Made by a program: the position numbers and the translations under genes
The notes under the pieces: generated by a model
The model's database searches: none
What the model was told of the DNA's origin: nothing
What the model saw: the letters and a program-made list of their open reading frames with translations, nothing else
Assembly: GCA_016793525.1 (NCBI GenBank)
Contig: JAEUJT010000203.1
Location: 1 to 5,009, forward strand
DNA length: 5,009 nucleotides
Reading direction: 5' to 3'
Source: Archangium sp.
Lineage (GTDB): Bacteria; Myxococcota; Myxococcia; Myxococcales; Myxococcaceae
Shown: in pieces, positions 1,875 to 5,009 of the stretch
Position numbering within the stretch: position 1 is the stretch's first letter
How the letters are laid out: each line of letters opens with the position of its first letter

Positions 1875-4800
1875 TCAGCGCAGCGCGCCTTCGGGCTCGG
1901 GCGCCGTCGACGGTGTGTCCACGACGATGAATTCGACGCGCCGGTTCTTCTCGCGGTCGGCCGGGGTGGTGTTACCCGCCACGGGCTTCAGCTCGCCGTA
2001 GCCCTTGGCCTCGAGGCGCTCGGGCGCGATGCCTTCTCGCTCGAGGAAGCGCTTCACGCTCTCCGCGCGTCGCTGGGAGAGCTCCAAGTTGTACTGGTCG
2101 TTCCCCACGCTGTCGGTGTGGCCCTCGACGCGCACCTTCACCAGCTCCGGGTGGGCTCGCATCGTCGACGCCACTTCCTTCAGCAGCTTGAAGGAGCGGT
2201 CGAGGATGAGGTCTTTGTTCGTCGCAAAGTAGACCTTCTCGAGAATGAGAATTCGGCCAGCCTCGAGGCGCACCTTCGACTCGCCCTGGTCGGGGCAGCC
2301 GTCGTCGTCTTGAGTGCCGTTGATGGTCTCAGGCACGAGCGGGCACTTGTCGACCGTGTCGAGAATGCCGTCTTTGTCGTTGTCGACGTCGGGGCAACCG
2401 TCGCCGTCTTCGAAGGTGTCTTTGTCTTCGGCCTGCGTCGGGCACCGGTCGACGTTGTCGAGCAACCCGTCGCCGTCGGTGTCGACGAGCGGCTTCTCAT
2501 CGGGGCAGCCGTCGGTGTCTTCGAAGCCGTTCACCGTCTCCGGCACCAGGGCGCAGCGGTCTTTCACGTCGGGAACGCCGTCTTTGTCGTTGTCGGGGTC
2601 GGGGCACCCGTCGCCGTCTTCGAAGGTGTCGCGGTCCTCCGGGTCGAGGCGGCAGCTGTCGGTCGTGTCGGGCACGCCGTCTGTGTCGTCGTCGAGGTCA
2701 GGGCACCCGTCGGTGTCTTCGAAGCCGTCTCTGTCTTCAGGCTGTGCGGGGCACGCGTCGACGTCGTCGAGCAACCCGTCACCGTCGCTGTCGCGCGGAG
2801 TTGCGGGTCCACACGTCGGGGCGTAGCCGATGCCCACCAACCCGCGCACGTCGGGAGCGCCGTACCCCGAGATGATGCCGCGCCCGACGCCCGCCGACAC
2901 CACCCACGCGCCGCCGAAGGTGGCCTTGAGCCCGACGTCGGCTTCGGTGGGCCGGTTCTCCGCGAGCTTGGTGCCGTTGAAGCCGACCAACCCGTGCACC
3001 ACGCCCGACACCGCAAAGGGCACGTCAGCGACGGTGAAAGGCACCTCACCAGCCACGGCCCAGGTGAATTCGTTGCCGAAGCTGACGTTGGCCACCATCT
3101 CCTGGCGGCGCAGGTTGATGCCCAGGTTCGCGTCGAGGCGAAAGTGCGAGTGCTGGTACTCGACGAGGGCGCGCGGCTGGGCGGCGAGAAAGCCTCCGCC
3201 CATGAAGGCGTCGGTGCGGCCCGTGGGCAACACGATGGGCAGCGCGAAACCCACCGTGATGCCCGAATCGAAGGTGGCGATGCGCACGCGCGGCAACAGG
3301 CGCAGGTCGCCGGCGCCGAAAATCCACCCCTCGCCGACATAGCGTGCGTTGAGCAACGGCGAGGAGCCCGCGCTCTGAATGTAGAGCGGCAGATGTACGC
3401 CCAACTCGAAGCGCTCGAAGATGCCGAGCGAGCCGTACAGGTCGGCCGTGAGCTGGTGGTCGACGAGGCGACCCACGCGCGTGCCGCCGTTCGCGTCTTT
3501 CAGCACCAGCGGGTTGAGCGCGTACTGAAAGAGCAGCCCCAGGTTCCAACACTGGTGCCCACATGTCTGCGGCGAGAGCGCGTTCTGTACGTCGAACCGG
3601 CCGATGCCCGGCTTGTAGAGCTGCACGTCGACTGCGGTCGAGGTCGCCTCCGTCTGCGCCAGCGCCGGTGACCCCGCGAAGACGGTGAAGAGCGCGAGGG
3701 CAACGGTCAGCGCCGTTGCGTGCGACCGTCGAAGGCGCCTCCGGAAGCGCAGGAGCGCGAAGGCCAGTGCGGCCACCGGAGCCCCAGGCACTTCAGTGCA
3801 GCCACAGCCACCACCACCGACGGTGAGCGCCGACGCCGAGACGGGCGGGAGCCCACCGAACACACCAGGCGCGGAGTCGATGAGGTCGGCGATGCCGTCT
3901 CCGTCAGCGTCTTCGACCTGGTCGATGACCCCGTCGCGGTCAGCGTCGAGCCGCGGGTCGACGTCAAAGTTCTTCCCGTCAGACTGCGTGTCGCGGAAGT
4001 CCGGCGTGCCGTCGGAGTCGGCGTCGGGCAGGTCTCCGGTGGTGTCTGGCTTCGGCGCGTTGCCGAAGGTGGTGGGCGCGTGGTCGGCGCTCTCCACGAT
4101 GCCGTCGCCGTCGGGGTCCAAGCCGTCGCACACACCGTTGGTGTCGGCGTCGGTGCAGCCCGAGCCGCCTTCAATCAGGTCGGAGCGGCCGTCGTTGTCG
4201 CTGTCCAAGTCGCGGAAGTCGGGCACGCCGTCGCCGTCGGTGTCTGGCCGGGGGCGAGCGGTGCCACCGAAGCGCGTCGGCTGACCGTCGCTCGTCGCAG
4301 GCAGGCCGTCTTTGTCGGTGTCGGTGCCGTCACACACCGCGTCGCGGTTGGAATCAGCGCAGCCGGAGCCGCCTTCCACCAGGTCGGAGAGGCCGTCGTT
4401 GTCGCTATCCAAATCGCGGAAGTCGGGCGCGCCGTCGCCGTCGGTGTCGGGCGTCGAGCCTCCGCCGGGAGCGCCGAAGGCCGCGGGGGCACCGTCTCCA
4501 CTCGAGCGTACACCGTCGCCATCGGCGTCATCTCCATCGCATACCGAGTTGGCGTCCGCGTCGGCGCAGGTGGCCTTGCCTTCGACCAGGTCGCTCACAC
4601 CGTCGTTGTCGCTGTCCAAGTCGCGGAAGTCGGGCGCTCCGTCGCCGTCGGTGTCCGCGGGGTTCGGCTCGGTCCGGTCTCCGAAGCCGGTCACGTTTCC
4701 ATCGGCGGAGTCGATGAGGCCGTCTCCGTCGCCGTCGGTGCCGTCGCACACGCCGTCAGCAGTCGCGTCGGTGCAGCCGCTCGGCCCTTCGGAGCGGTCG

Positions 4801-5009
4801 GAGACGCCGTCGTCGTCGCTGTCCAGGTCGCGCAGGTCGGGCAGCCCATCAGCGTCGGTGTCGGGCAGCGCGGGAGAAGCCGTGTCGCCGAACGTCGTGG
4901 TGCCATCGGCGCTGTCGACGATGCCATCGCGGTCGGTGTCGGGCCCGTCGCACACGCTGTCGCCGGTGGCGTCGGTGCACCGAGACGCACCTTCGGCCAG
5001 GTCGGAGAT
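1875..5009 (-). CDS. Calcium-repeat / MYXO-CTERM-like / OmpA-family composite surface protein (N-terminus outside window)
   Basis: One frame runs from the right edge (no stop, no credible start) to the TGA at 1875-1877, 1044 residues. The GTG at 4955 lies inside a repeat and is not a start. Counting from the window edge: residues 1-380 are aspartate-rich calcium-loop repeats; 398-428 are GGGGCGC, a hydrophobic stretch and an Arg cluster, resembling a MYXO-CTERM surface-sorting tail; 432-451 resemble a Sec signal peptide h-region ending ALA before Gln; 452-733 are barrel-like; 740-907 are five thrombospondin type 3 repeats; 911-1031 are an OmpA C-terminal domain. The second half is a typical OmpA-family outer-membrane protein that anchors to peptidoglycan. 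The first half looks like a separate surface-sorted calcium-binding protein. No stop separates them, and the only in-frame non-CTG candidate starts near the junction are GTG codons at 3791 and 3776. Whether it is a real fusion, a processed polyprotein, two overlapping products or an artefact is open. It converges on the sigma cluster and is probably regulated independently. Confidence 0.88.
1917..2276 (-). other. OmpA C-terminal peptidoglycan-binding domain
   Basis: About 120 residues contain the OmpA/MotB-type signature: [53 protein letters not shown] and KNRRVEFIV. The Asp of HTD and the second Arg of SQRRA are 15 residues apart, the same spacing as the diaminopimelate-binding Asp271 and Arg286 of E. 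coli OmpA, so binding capacity appears intact. The domain would lie in the periplasm and fasten the outer membrane to peptidoglycan. A short proline- and glutamate-containing tail of about 13 residues follows it. Confidence 0.93.
2289..2792 (-). repeat. Five thrombospondin type 3 calcium-binding repeats
   Basis: Five units of about 32-37 residues follow the plan DxDxDGxxDxxDxCPxxPEDxDxFEDxDGCPD, each with calcium-binding aspartates and usually two cysteines. Thrombospondin type 3 repeats commonly link the barrel and the peptidoglycan-binding domain in OmpA-family proteins, acting as a calcium-rigidified periplasmic spacer. At DNA level a two-unit block is duplicated: closely similar stretches begin at 2368 and 2578 (210 bases apart). 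The fourth unit carries a four-residue insert (EKPL region), and the fifth departs from the pattern (NGTQDDDG in place of FEDxDG). Confidence 0.92.
2811..3656 (-). other. Predicted outer-membrane beta-barrel domain of the OmpA-family part
   Basis: About 282 residues follow the predicted signal cleavage site. They contain repeated amphipathic strand-like stretches with aromatic and glycine residues (for example [41 protein letters not shown] and [13 protein letters not shown]), fitting a transmembrane barrel or barrel-like domain at the N-terminus of a myxobacterial OmpA-family protein. The opening [17 protein letters not shown] and YALNPLVL match what I recall of that family. An unusual CGHQC lies near the start. 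Strand number cannot be fixed by eye. Confidence 0.65.
3657..3818 (-). other. MYXO-CTERM-like tail fused directly to a signal-peptide-like segment
   Basis: In protein order this encodes GGGGCGC, a short hydrophobic stretch ([11 protein letters not shown]), the basic cluster RFRRRLRR, then [20 protein letters not shown] and ALA before a Gln. The first three parts match the known MYXO-CTERM plan (Gly/Cys motif, transmembrane helix, Arg-rich end), which directs cysteine-based lipid anchoring and surface sorting and is processed by a myxosortase-type protease. MYXO-CTERM tails normally end the protein at the arginines. Here a second hydrophobic stretch with a classic A-x-A signal peptidase I site follows at once. 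The basic loop would stay in the cytoplasm with both flanks exported, agreeing with the positive-inside rule. The first hydrophobic stretch is short, so the MYXO-CTERM call is probable rather than certain. Confidence 0.7.
3870..5009 (-). repeat. Tandem array of ~207-bp units encoding calcium-loop repeats
   Basis: The unit has the form [27 protein letters not shown]2-GC-x8-VCDG, then DxDxDG and a TxFG-type tail. Its conserved DNA core (xCCGTCGTTGTCGCTGTCC on the + strand) starts near 4188, 4392, 4599 and 4806, at spacings of 204, 207 and 207 bases (68-69 residues). A further partial unit lies at the right edge. Each good unit has 2-3 DxDxDG calcium-binding loops and one cysteine pair nine residues apart, probably a local disulfide. 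The last unit (about 3870-4030) is divergent, lacks the cysteines and is spaced 73 residues from its neighbour. The array continues beyond the window, so its copy number is unknown. The repeats probably form a rigid, calcium-stiffened rod outside the cell. Confidence 0.9.

Follow-up and report, generated by a model that had tools for sequence, protein, structure and literature searches.

The stretch of DNA analyzed here (the window, 5,009 nucleotides at its full length) carries on its minus strand a single uninterrupted open reading frame (1875-5009, 1044 amino acids), which terminates at a stop codon at position 1875 and is open at its 5' end. This frame comprises a repetitive rod, a hairpin-like junction, a predicted beta-barrel, a TSP3 linker and an OmpA domain, and it is probably one ORF for a surface rod and an outer membrane barrel with two processing signals placed back to back between them. 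The rod (3850-5009, minus strand) covers the first ~400 residues of the frame and consists of Asp-rich TSP3-like repeats with paired Cys residues; direct repeats at a spacing of 204/207 nt define a repeat unit of ~204-207 nt (68-69 aa), and a Pfam search reported no match for this part of the protein. The plus strand encodes at 499-1817 an ECF-type sigma factor (PF04542 and PF08281, both above cut-off) and behind it a Pro-rich ORF, perhaps a regulator, whose matches to TonB_N and YfiO are weak and sub-cut-off; both are convergent to the long gene.

The C-terminal part of the protein begins with a predicted outer membrane beta-barrel (2823-3548, minus strand), delimited by an AlphaFold2 model with a mean pLDDT of 82.3 and a pTM of 0.54 in which the two helices of the junction are of low confidence. 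In this model 16 strand elements group into a barrel of ~12 strands, and the first long strand lies ~36 residues after the predicted cut. The best barrel matches in Foldseek were FapF (5o65, 5o67 and 5o68; target TM 0.58-0.69) and the COG4313 channel 4rl8 (0.63-0.64). The barrel is followed on the same strand by a TSP3-type calcium-repeat linker with approximate limits 2286-2783, recognized by conserved Asp and Cys columns and a PF02412 score of 23 bits (cut-off 25), and by an OmpA peptidoglycan-binding domain (1941-2231; PF00691, 79.5 bits; Foldseek match to 5wtl). The layout of TraB-type proteins, barrel plus TSP3 plus OmpA, is present in the window with a TSP3 score below cut-off. Assignment of the protein to TraB itself was rejected, as the NF033763 score was 266 bits against a cut-off of 700. 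The second product had been described as an OmpA-type barrel in the sequence-only reading; both an OmpA domain and a predicted barrel are there, and it is better named a TraB-like barrel with TSP3 and OmpA.

Between rod and barrel the sequence-only reading had noticed a Gly/Cys motif, a hydrophobic segment, an Arg-rich cluster and a second hydrophobic segment ending in ALA and Gln with no intervening stop codon, and all of these elements were confirmed to lie in one minus-strand frame. The signature GGGGCGC (3798-3818) contains the candidate lipidated or cleaved Cys (Cys codons 3804-3806 and 3798-3800). It is followed by the first hydrophobic segment (3750-3788), which corresponds to the transmembrane part of a MYXO-CTERM tail according to the comparison of junctions and forms a helix of low pLDDT in the model (residues 25-37). 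The junction comparison also delimits the cluster RFRRRLRR (3726-3749), predicted to be cytoplasmic and apparently common to the sorting tail and to the next signal peptide. The second hydrophobic segment (3657-3719; model helix 43-57, low pLDDT) is signal-peptide-like and ends in S-P-A-L-A, with the A-L-A triplet at 3657-3665 and the predicted cut just before the Gln codon at 3654-3656.

The occurrence of this join among relatives was evaluated in a scan that detected 416 loci encoding a relative of the barrel, of which the best 80 were kept. Among these best 80 of 416, 26 are fused with an internal Cys-helix-Arg arrangement, 8 are two-gene loci (a separate upstream gene with a MYXO-CTERM-like tail, judged by eye), 44 fit neither type and 2 are truncated by the contig. 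The closest relative (L001, 57% identity) is fused, and its full frame (L153) encodes 3,124 aa; tblastn of the genes flanking the long gene of the window gave no match at L001/L153. The fused form occurs in named isolates of Myxococcus, Corallococcus, Archangium, Hyalangium and Pyxidicoccus; L003 and L012 are not fused but single, and L015 is a two-gene locus. Two loci with long frames upstream of the barrel that bear no real tag (L024, L069) were excluded from the fused set, and L142 and L143 were rejected as not being true junction homologs. In a protein search, many of the 120 matches listed out of 197 were proteins of 1,000-1,800 aa with the same join.

With a profile of junction plus barrel, and at most nine candidates scored per genome, a relative was detected in 181 of 195 genomes of the phylum. 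By a hand count among the matches listed, the fusion is present in at least 70 of the 195; it was accepted when the match began at or before model position 15 within a stop-to-stop frame of at least 800 aa containing no stop, and the figure is a lower bound from a profile that was built from fused rows and favors fused forms among its top matches. Seven genomes searched more fully had 1, 2, 5, 4, 3, 1 and 2 copies, again counted by hand among the matches listed. The five fused copies listed for one of them (G003) have frames of 1,269-5,101 aa and may combine diverse rods with similar barrels.

The single known record of the window's protein, a contig of 5,009 bases, would suit the explanation that a missed base or a lost stop in the contig, or an accident of the strain, produced the join. 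The same join is found in named isolates and in many other genomes, so that fused relatives refute this explanation and its probability is negligible. A stop plus a separate start throughout the close relatives, the pattern by which the sequence-only reading would have recognized such an artefact, is not what these loci contain: the close relatives are fused, and comparison of the joined region with the relatives showed that the fusion is conserved in 26 of the 80 loci.

The first half of the junction resembles a MYXO-CTERM sorting tag in several respects. In agreement with the TIGR03382/TIGR03901 definitions, the window has the Gly/Cys signature, the invariant Cys, a helix and then an Arg-rich cluster; against the C-terminal position that these definitions call for, the tag is internal, with ~617 residues after the Arg cluster. 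An 18-row alignment covering fused junctions and their barrels, at 26-50% identity to the window, has a Cys at the position of the first Cys in 18/18 rows, and one Arg of the cluster is likewise invariant. The TIGR03382 model scored 14.5 bits on a 57-aa piece of the window junction and 13.3 bits on an 81-aa piece (cut-off 15.85). According to the passages of a recent paper that treat this tag, MYXO-CTERM is a three-part tag at the C-terminus that ends in its Arg region, and its bearers are exported by Sec, anchored by the helix, lipidated on the Cys, cleaved by MrtX and delivered to the surface by type II secretion (PMC11980579).

The C-terminal position of the published tag and a score slightly below cut-off agree with the explanation that the junction is cut once, either by signal peptidase I, which would free the barrel and leave the rod with a two-helix tail uncut by myxosortase, or the reverse. 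This we consider rather unlikely: a Cys that is invariant in all 18 aligned fused junctions would be odd if unused, the TIGR03382 cut-off is exceeded by 8 internal junctions in three genomes (G003, G004 and G005; L007 reaches 27.8 bits and L009 22.9 bits), and the same paper states, with reference to other work, that C-terminal tags are functional from mid-protein (PMC11980579).

A candidate for the protease that would process the tag was sought with the myxosortase model NF040593, which matched in all 15 fusion genomes tested (16 fused loci), above cut-off in 5 of the 15. Several of the 10 matches below cut-off cover part of the model only, and some may be other CPBP proteases. Among 14 control genomes none matched above cut-off and 4 matched below it.

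For the second half of the junction, 81 distinct junctions were compared, all selected for a Cys and a basic pair; 180 other matching frames did not pass this filter. The filter makes the Cys and the basic pair, and to a large extent the positive loop, true by construction in these 81 junctions; the independent evidence is the second segment together with the 18-row alignment. All 81 junctions have a small-x-small site (strict A-x-A in 72/81) as well as the second hydrophobic segment; the first hydrophobic segment is present in 77/81, the other 4 being rows with a wrongly picked Cys. After exclusion of rows in which the wrong Cys was picked (L074, L148, P0078, P0085 and P0117), A-x-A occurs in 69 of the 76 control rows; stretches of the same length taken 40 and 80 residues farther downstream have it in 4 and 8 rows. 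Shuffling the letters of the same stretch yields A-x-A in 52.9 of 76 rows on average, so that presence of the motif is largely explained by richness in Ala, and the observed number is moderately above what such a composition yields. Since these stretches are Ala-rich, the aligned position of the motif is better evidence than its presence: both Ala residues are found at 90% or more in the 18 rows, where A-x-A and the Cys rank with the best-conserved sites of the junction. Gln follows the last A-x-A in 40/69 junctions and the first A-x-A in 34/69, or 59/76 if sites preceding Gln are preferred; this is reminiscent of the Q-rule, which is called specific to Bacteroidetes in the source consulted in part (PMC5837995).

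The features of a signal peptidase I substrate, namely a positive n-region, a hydrophobic core and A-x-A, are present, at a site that is internal and has no start of its own. In the shortest joins the first Arg is separated from the second core by 3-4 residues, so the same arginines contact both helices; judging from this anatomy, a single cluster apparently doubles as the end of the sorting tail and the n-region of the signal peptide. The loop between the helices appears weakly constrained, because nucleotide changes in 12 pairs of relatives fall 38/24/38 at codon positions 1/2/3, with no third-position excess; these pairs were chosen for equal length and are uninformative on indels. Chance can be excluded as the source of the arrangement, which is shared by L001 and 26 of the 80 loci with the Cys and Arg invariant and A-x-A so well conserved. 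Both predicted processing signals are conserved among the fused relatives.

The high conservation of the A-x-A Ala pair in the 18 rows also bears on the possibility that the protein stays whole, with the hairpin in the inner membrane and the barrel in the outer membrane. An unprocessed tether of this kind would make such conservation hard to account for, and its link to the first long strand would measure ~36 residues in the model, presumably too short to cross the periplasm uncut, which favors two cuts. We regard the tether as very improbable.

How the barrel half would be translated depends on the start codons near the junction. In the window, the GTG located 8 codons past the second Cys of GCGC, within the first hydrophobic segment, is followed by no in-frame ATG, GTG or TTG until the barrel, which leaves the barrel with no obvious start of its own. 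Ribosomes might also initiate within the junction, in which case the long protein would not be the main source of the barrel. Consistent with this, 39 of 52 fused DNA junctions have a candidate start close to the Arg cluster, and by a cruder measure a start falls in the 8 codons before the cluster in 22/27 fused junctions versus 23/42 ordinary tails, a control that leans to dual translation and is weak because several of the 42 are evident false frames. Such a start is missing in 13 of the 52, namely the window, L001 and 11 other rows; the candidate positions vary between genera, and GTG and ATG codons are expected anyway in hydrophobic helices encoded by GC-rich DNA. Initiation within the junction as the main origin of the barrel is accordingly improbable.

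The evolutionary relation between fused and split forms was addressed with two trees. In a barrel tree of 79 rows, from which L044 and L077 (cut by contig ends) were omitted, the distribution of fused rows requires 8 label changes, and well-supported branches force at least 6 of them, with gain and loss indistinguishable; the window and L001 are sisters (SH-aLRT 100) within a set of 18 rows of which 16 are fused (99). A second, quick tree was used for its branching and not for counts of label changes. It contains another group of orthologs, forming one clade (100), in which a single in-frame stop downstream of the Arg tail divides L155 and L156 (split pair, 98), and L160, L162 and L163 read through (fused trio, 99). 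The split L141 likewise pairs with the fused L147 (support 96). At L157 and L158 the upstream MYXO-CTERM-like frame overlaps the barrel gene by four bases in a different frame, and by the curated cut-off both of these barrel genes qualify as TraB. Separate, overlapping and fused arrangements therefore coexist.

Taken together, these results make it likely that the long gene encodes a cellular polyprotein that receives two cuts, by signal peptidase I at A-x-A and by a myxosortase at the Cys, and yields rod and barrel at 1:1. The membrane-hairpin polyprotein that the sequence-only reading had proposed is supported in so far as relatives are fused rather than consistently split and both signals are conserved, with the cleavage itself deduced from these signals. 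Judging from the open frame, one precursor would be translated straight through the junction, and an N-terminal signal upstream of the window would export the rod. The first helix would then stop transfer while the Arg cluster remains in the cytoplasm, and the second helix would restart export as an internal signal peptide and send the barrel part to the periplasm. Signal peptidase I would cut after A-L-A, freeing a barrel with Gln as first residue, to be inserted into the outer membrane by BAM while the OmpA domain grips the wall. The rod would retain a MYXO-CTERM-like tail, be cut by a myxosortase at the lipidated Cys and be taken to the cell surface by the type II secretion system, as in the published model for TraA. 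The purpose of such an arrangement could be the fixed 1:1 co-production of a surface rod and a wall-bound outer membrane anchor, a one-gene counterpart of TraA/TraB.

One observation on the relatives is left unexplained by this simple two-cut model. By eye, 8 of the 17 N-termini listed for complete fused frames (L153, L150, L151, L148, L152, L149, L007 and L071) are lipoprotein-signal-like, with a Cys after a short hydrophobic core, the other 9 being signal peptidase I-like or ambiguous; in such relatives both ends of the rod might be lipidated.

To our knowledge, few bacterial polyproteins give rise to two different envelope proteins by cleavage. In Bradyrhizobium, the fbcH precursor of cytochrome b/c1 is a polyprotein cleaved at a signal peptide within its chain; it is respiratory and bears no sorting tag. 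Viral polyproteins contain helix-loop-helix joins cut by signal peptidase in which the second helix is the signal peptide of the next protein; these operate in the eukaryotic ER and have no Cys tag. A search of the open-access literature for bacterial polyproteins with internal signal peptides gave nothing on the present system.

The nearest published case is MXAN_5598 of Myxococcus xanthus, for which an atypical internal MYXO-CTERM was noted in the portion of the paper devoted to it and whose N-terminal part was proposed to be processed and anchored at the surface (Guo, Haft, Wall 2025; PMC11980579). Like the protein of the window, MXAN_5598 combines in one ORF a large adhesin-like region, an internal MYXO-CTERM, a barrel and OmpA (PMC11980579); adhesin-like refers here to the architecture of the window's repeats, for which an adhesin role is putative. 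The two differ in location, as the passages concerned place MXAN_5598 in the ftsA/ftsZ cluster (PMC11980579) and the gene of the window is convergent to the ECF sigma factor gene and its neighbor. The account given in those passages also includes no second signal or signal peptidase cut at the join (PMC11980579). The Myxococcus locus L004, in which a gene read as ftsZ adjoins the fused gene, groups with the window in the 18-row clade and fits the description of MXAN_5598. MXAN_5598 itself is listed in a table of vesicle proteins from 2014, in the part of that source consulted (PMC4158809).

The gene of the window is a further member of the MXAN_5598 kind at another locus. The idea of an internal MYXO-CTERM with barrel and OmpA is already published for MXAN_5598, and what the present analysis adds is the breadth, the recurrent fusion, the second signal and the shared Arg cluster, for none of which a report was found in the open-access literature searched. 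The 2025 remark on one atypical protein thereby describes a more general design whose join recurs across the phylum. This predicts that two-product genes are hidden behind a single OmpA family annotation, and it offers a natural test of the function of a sorting tag from inside a chain.

There is a wider reading, toward which we lean by a narrow margin: that one Arg cluster acts as both MYXO-CTERM tail and internal signal n-region in widespread, often multi-copy polyproteins of Myxococcota, that acquiring or losing a single stop switches TraAB-type adhesin/anchor pairs between separate genes, overlapping genes and one gene, and that fusion fixes a 1:1 ratio and co-delivery. The recurrent join also opens a route to asking why TraAB-like pairs are made at 1:1, a ratio that a polyprotein would fix. 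Of the 7 genomes tested, 6 encode true TraB as a separate gene, and true TraB has a long branch to itself in the quick tree; G001, the genome of L001, has no TraB match above the family cut-off, unlike the other 6. As described in the portions consulted of the respective papers, TraA and TraB occur at 1:1 with a barrel-TSP3-OmpA layout in TraB (PMC12045341), and the traA and traB genes share a four-base overlap (PMC3325183). In the pair as in the protein of the window, a surface protein with a MYXO-CTERM precedes a partner of barrel-TSP3-OmpA type; by eye, the rod of the window lacks a TraA-like architecture, and TraA and TraB are encoded by two genes whereas the window has one.
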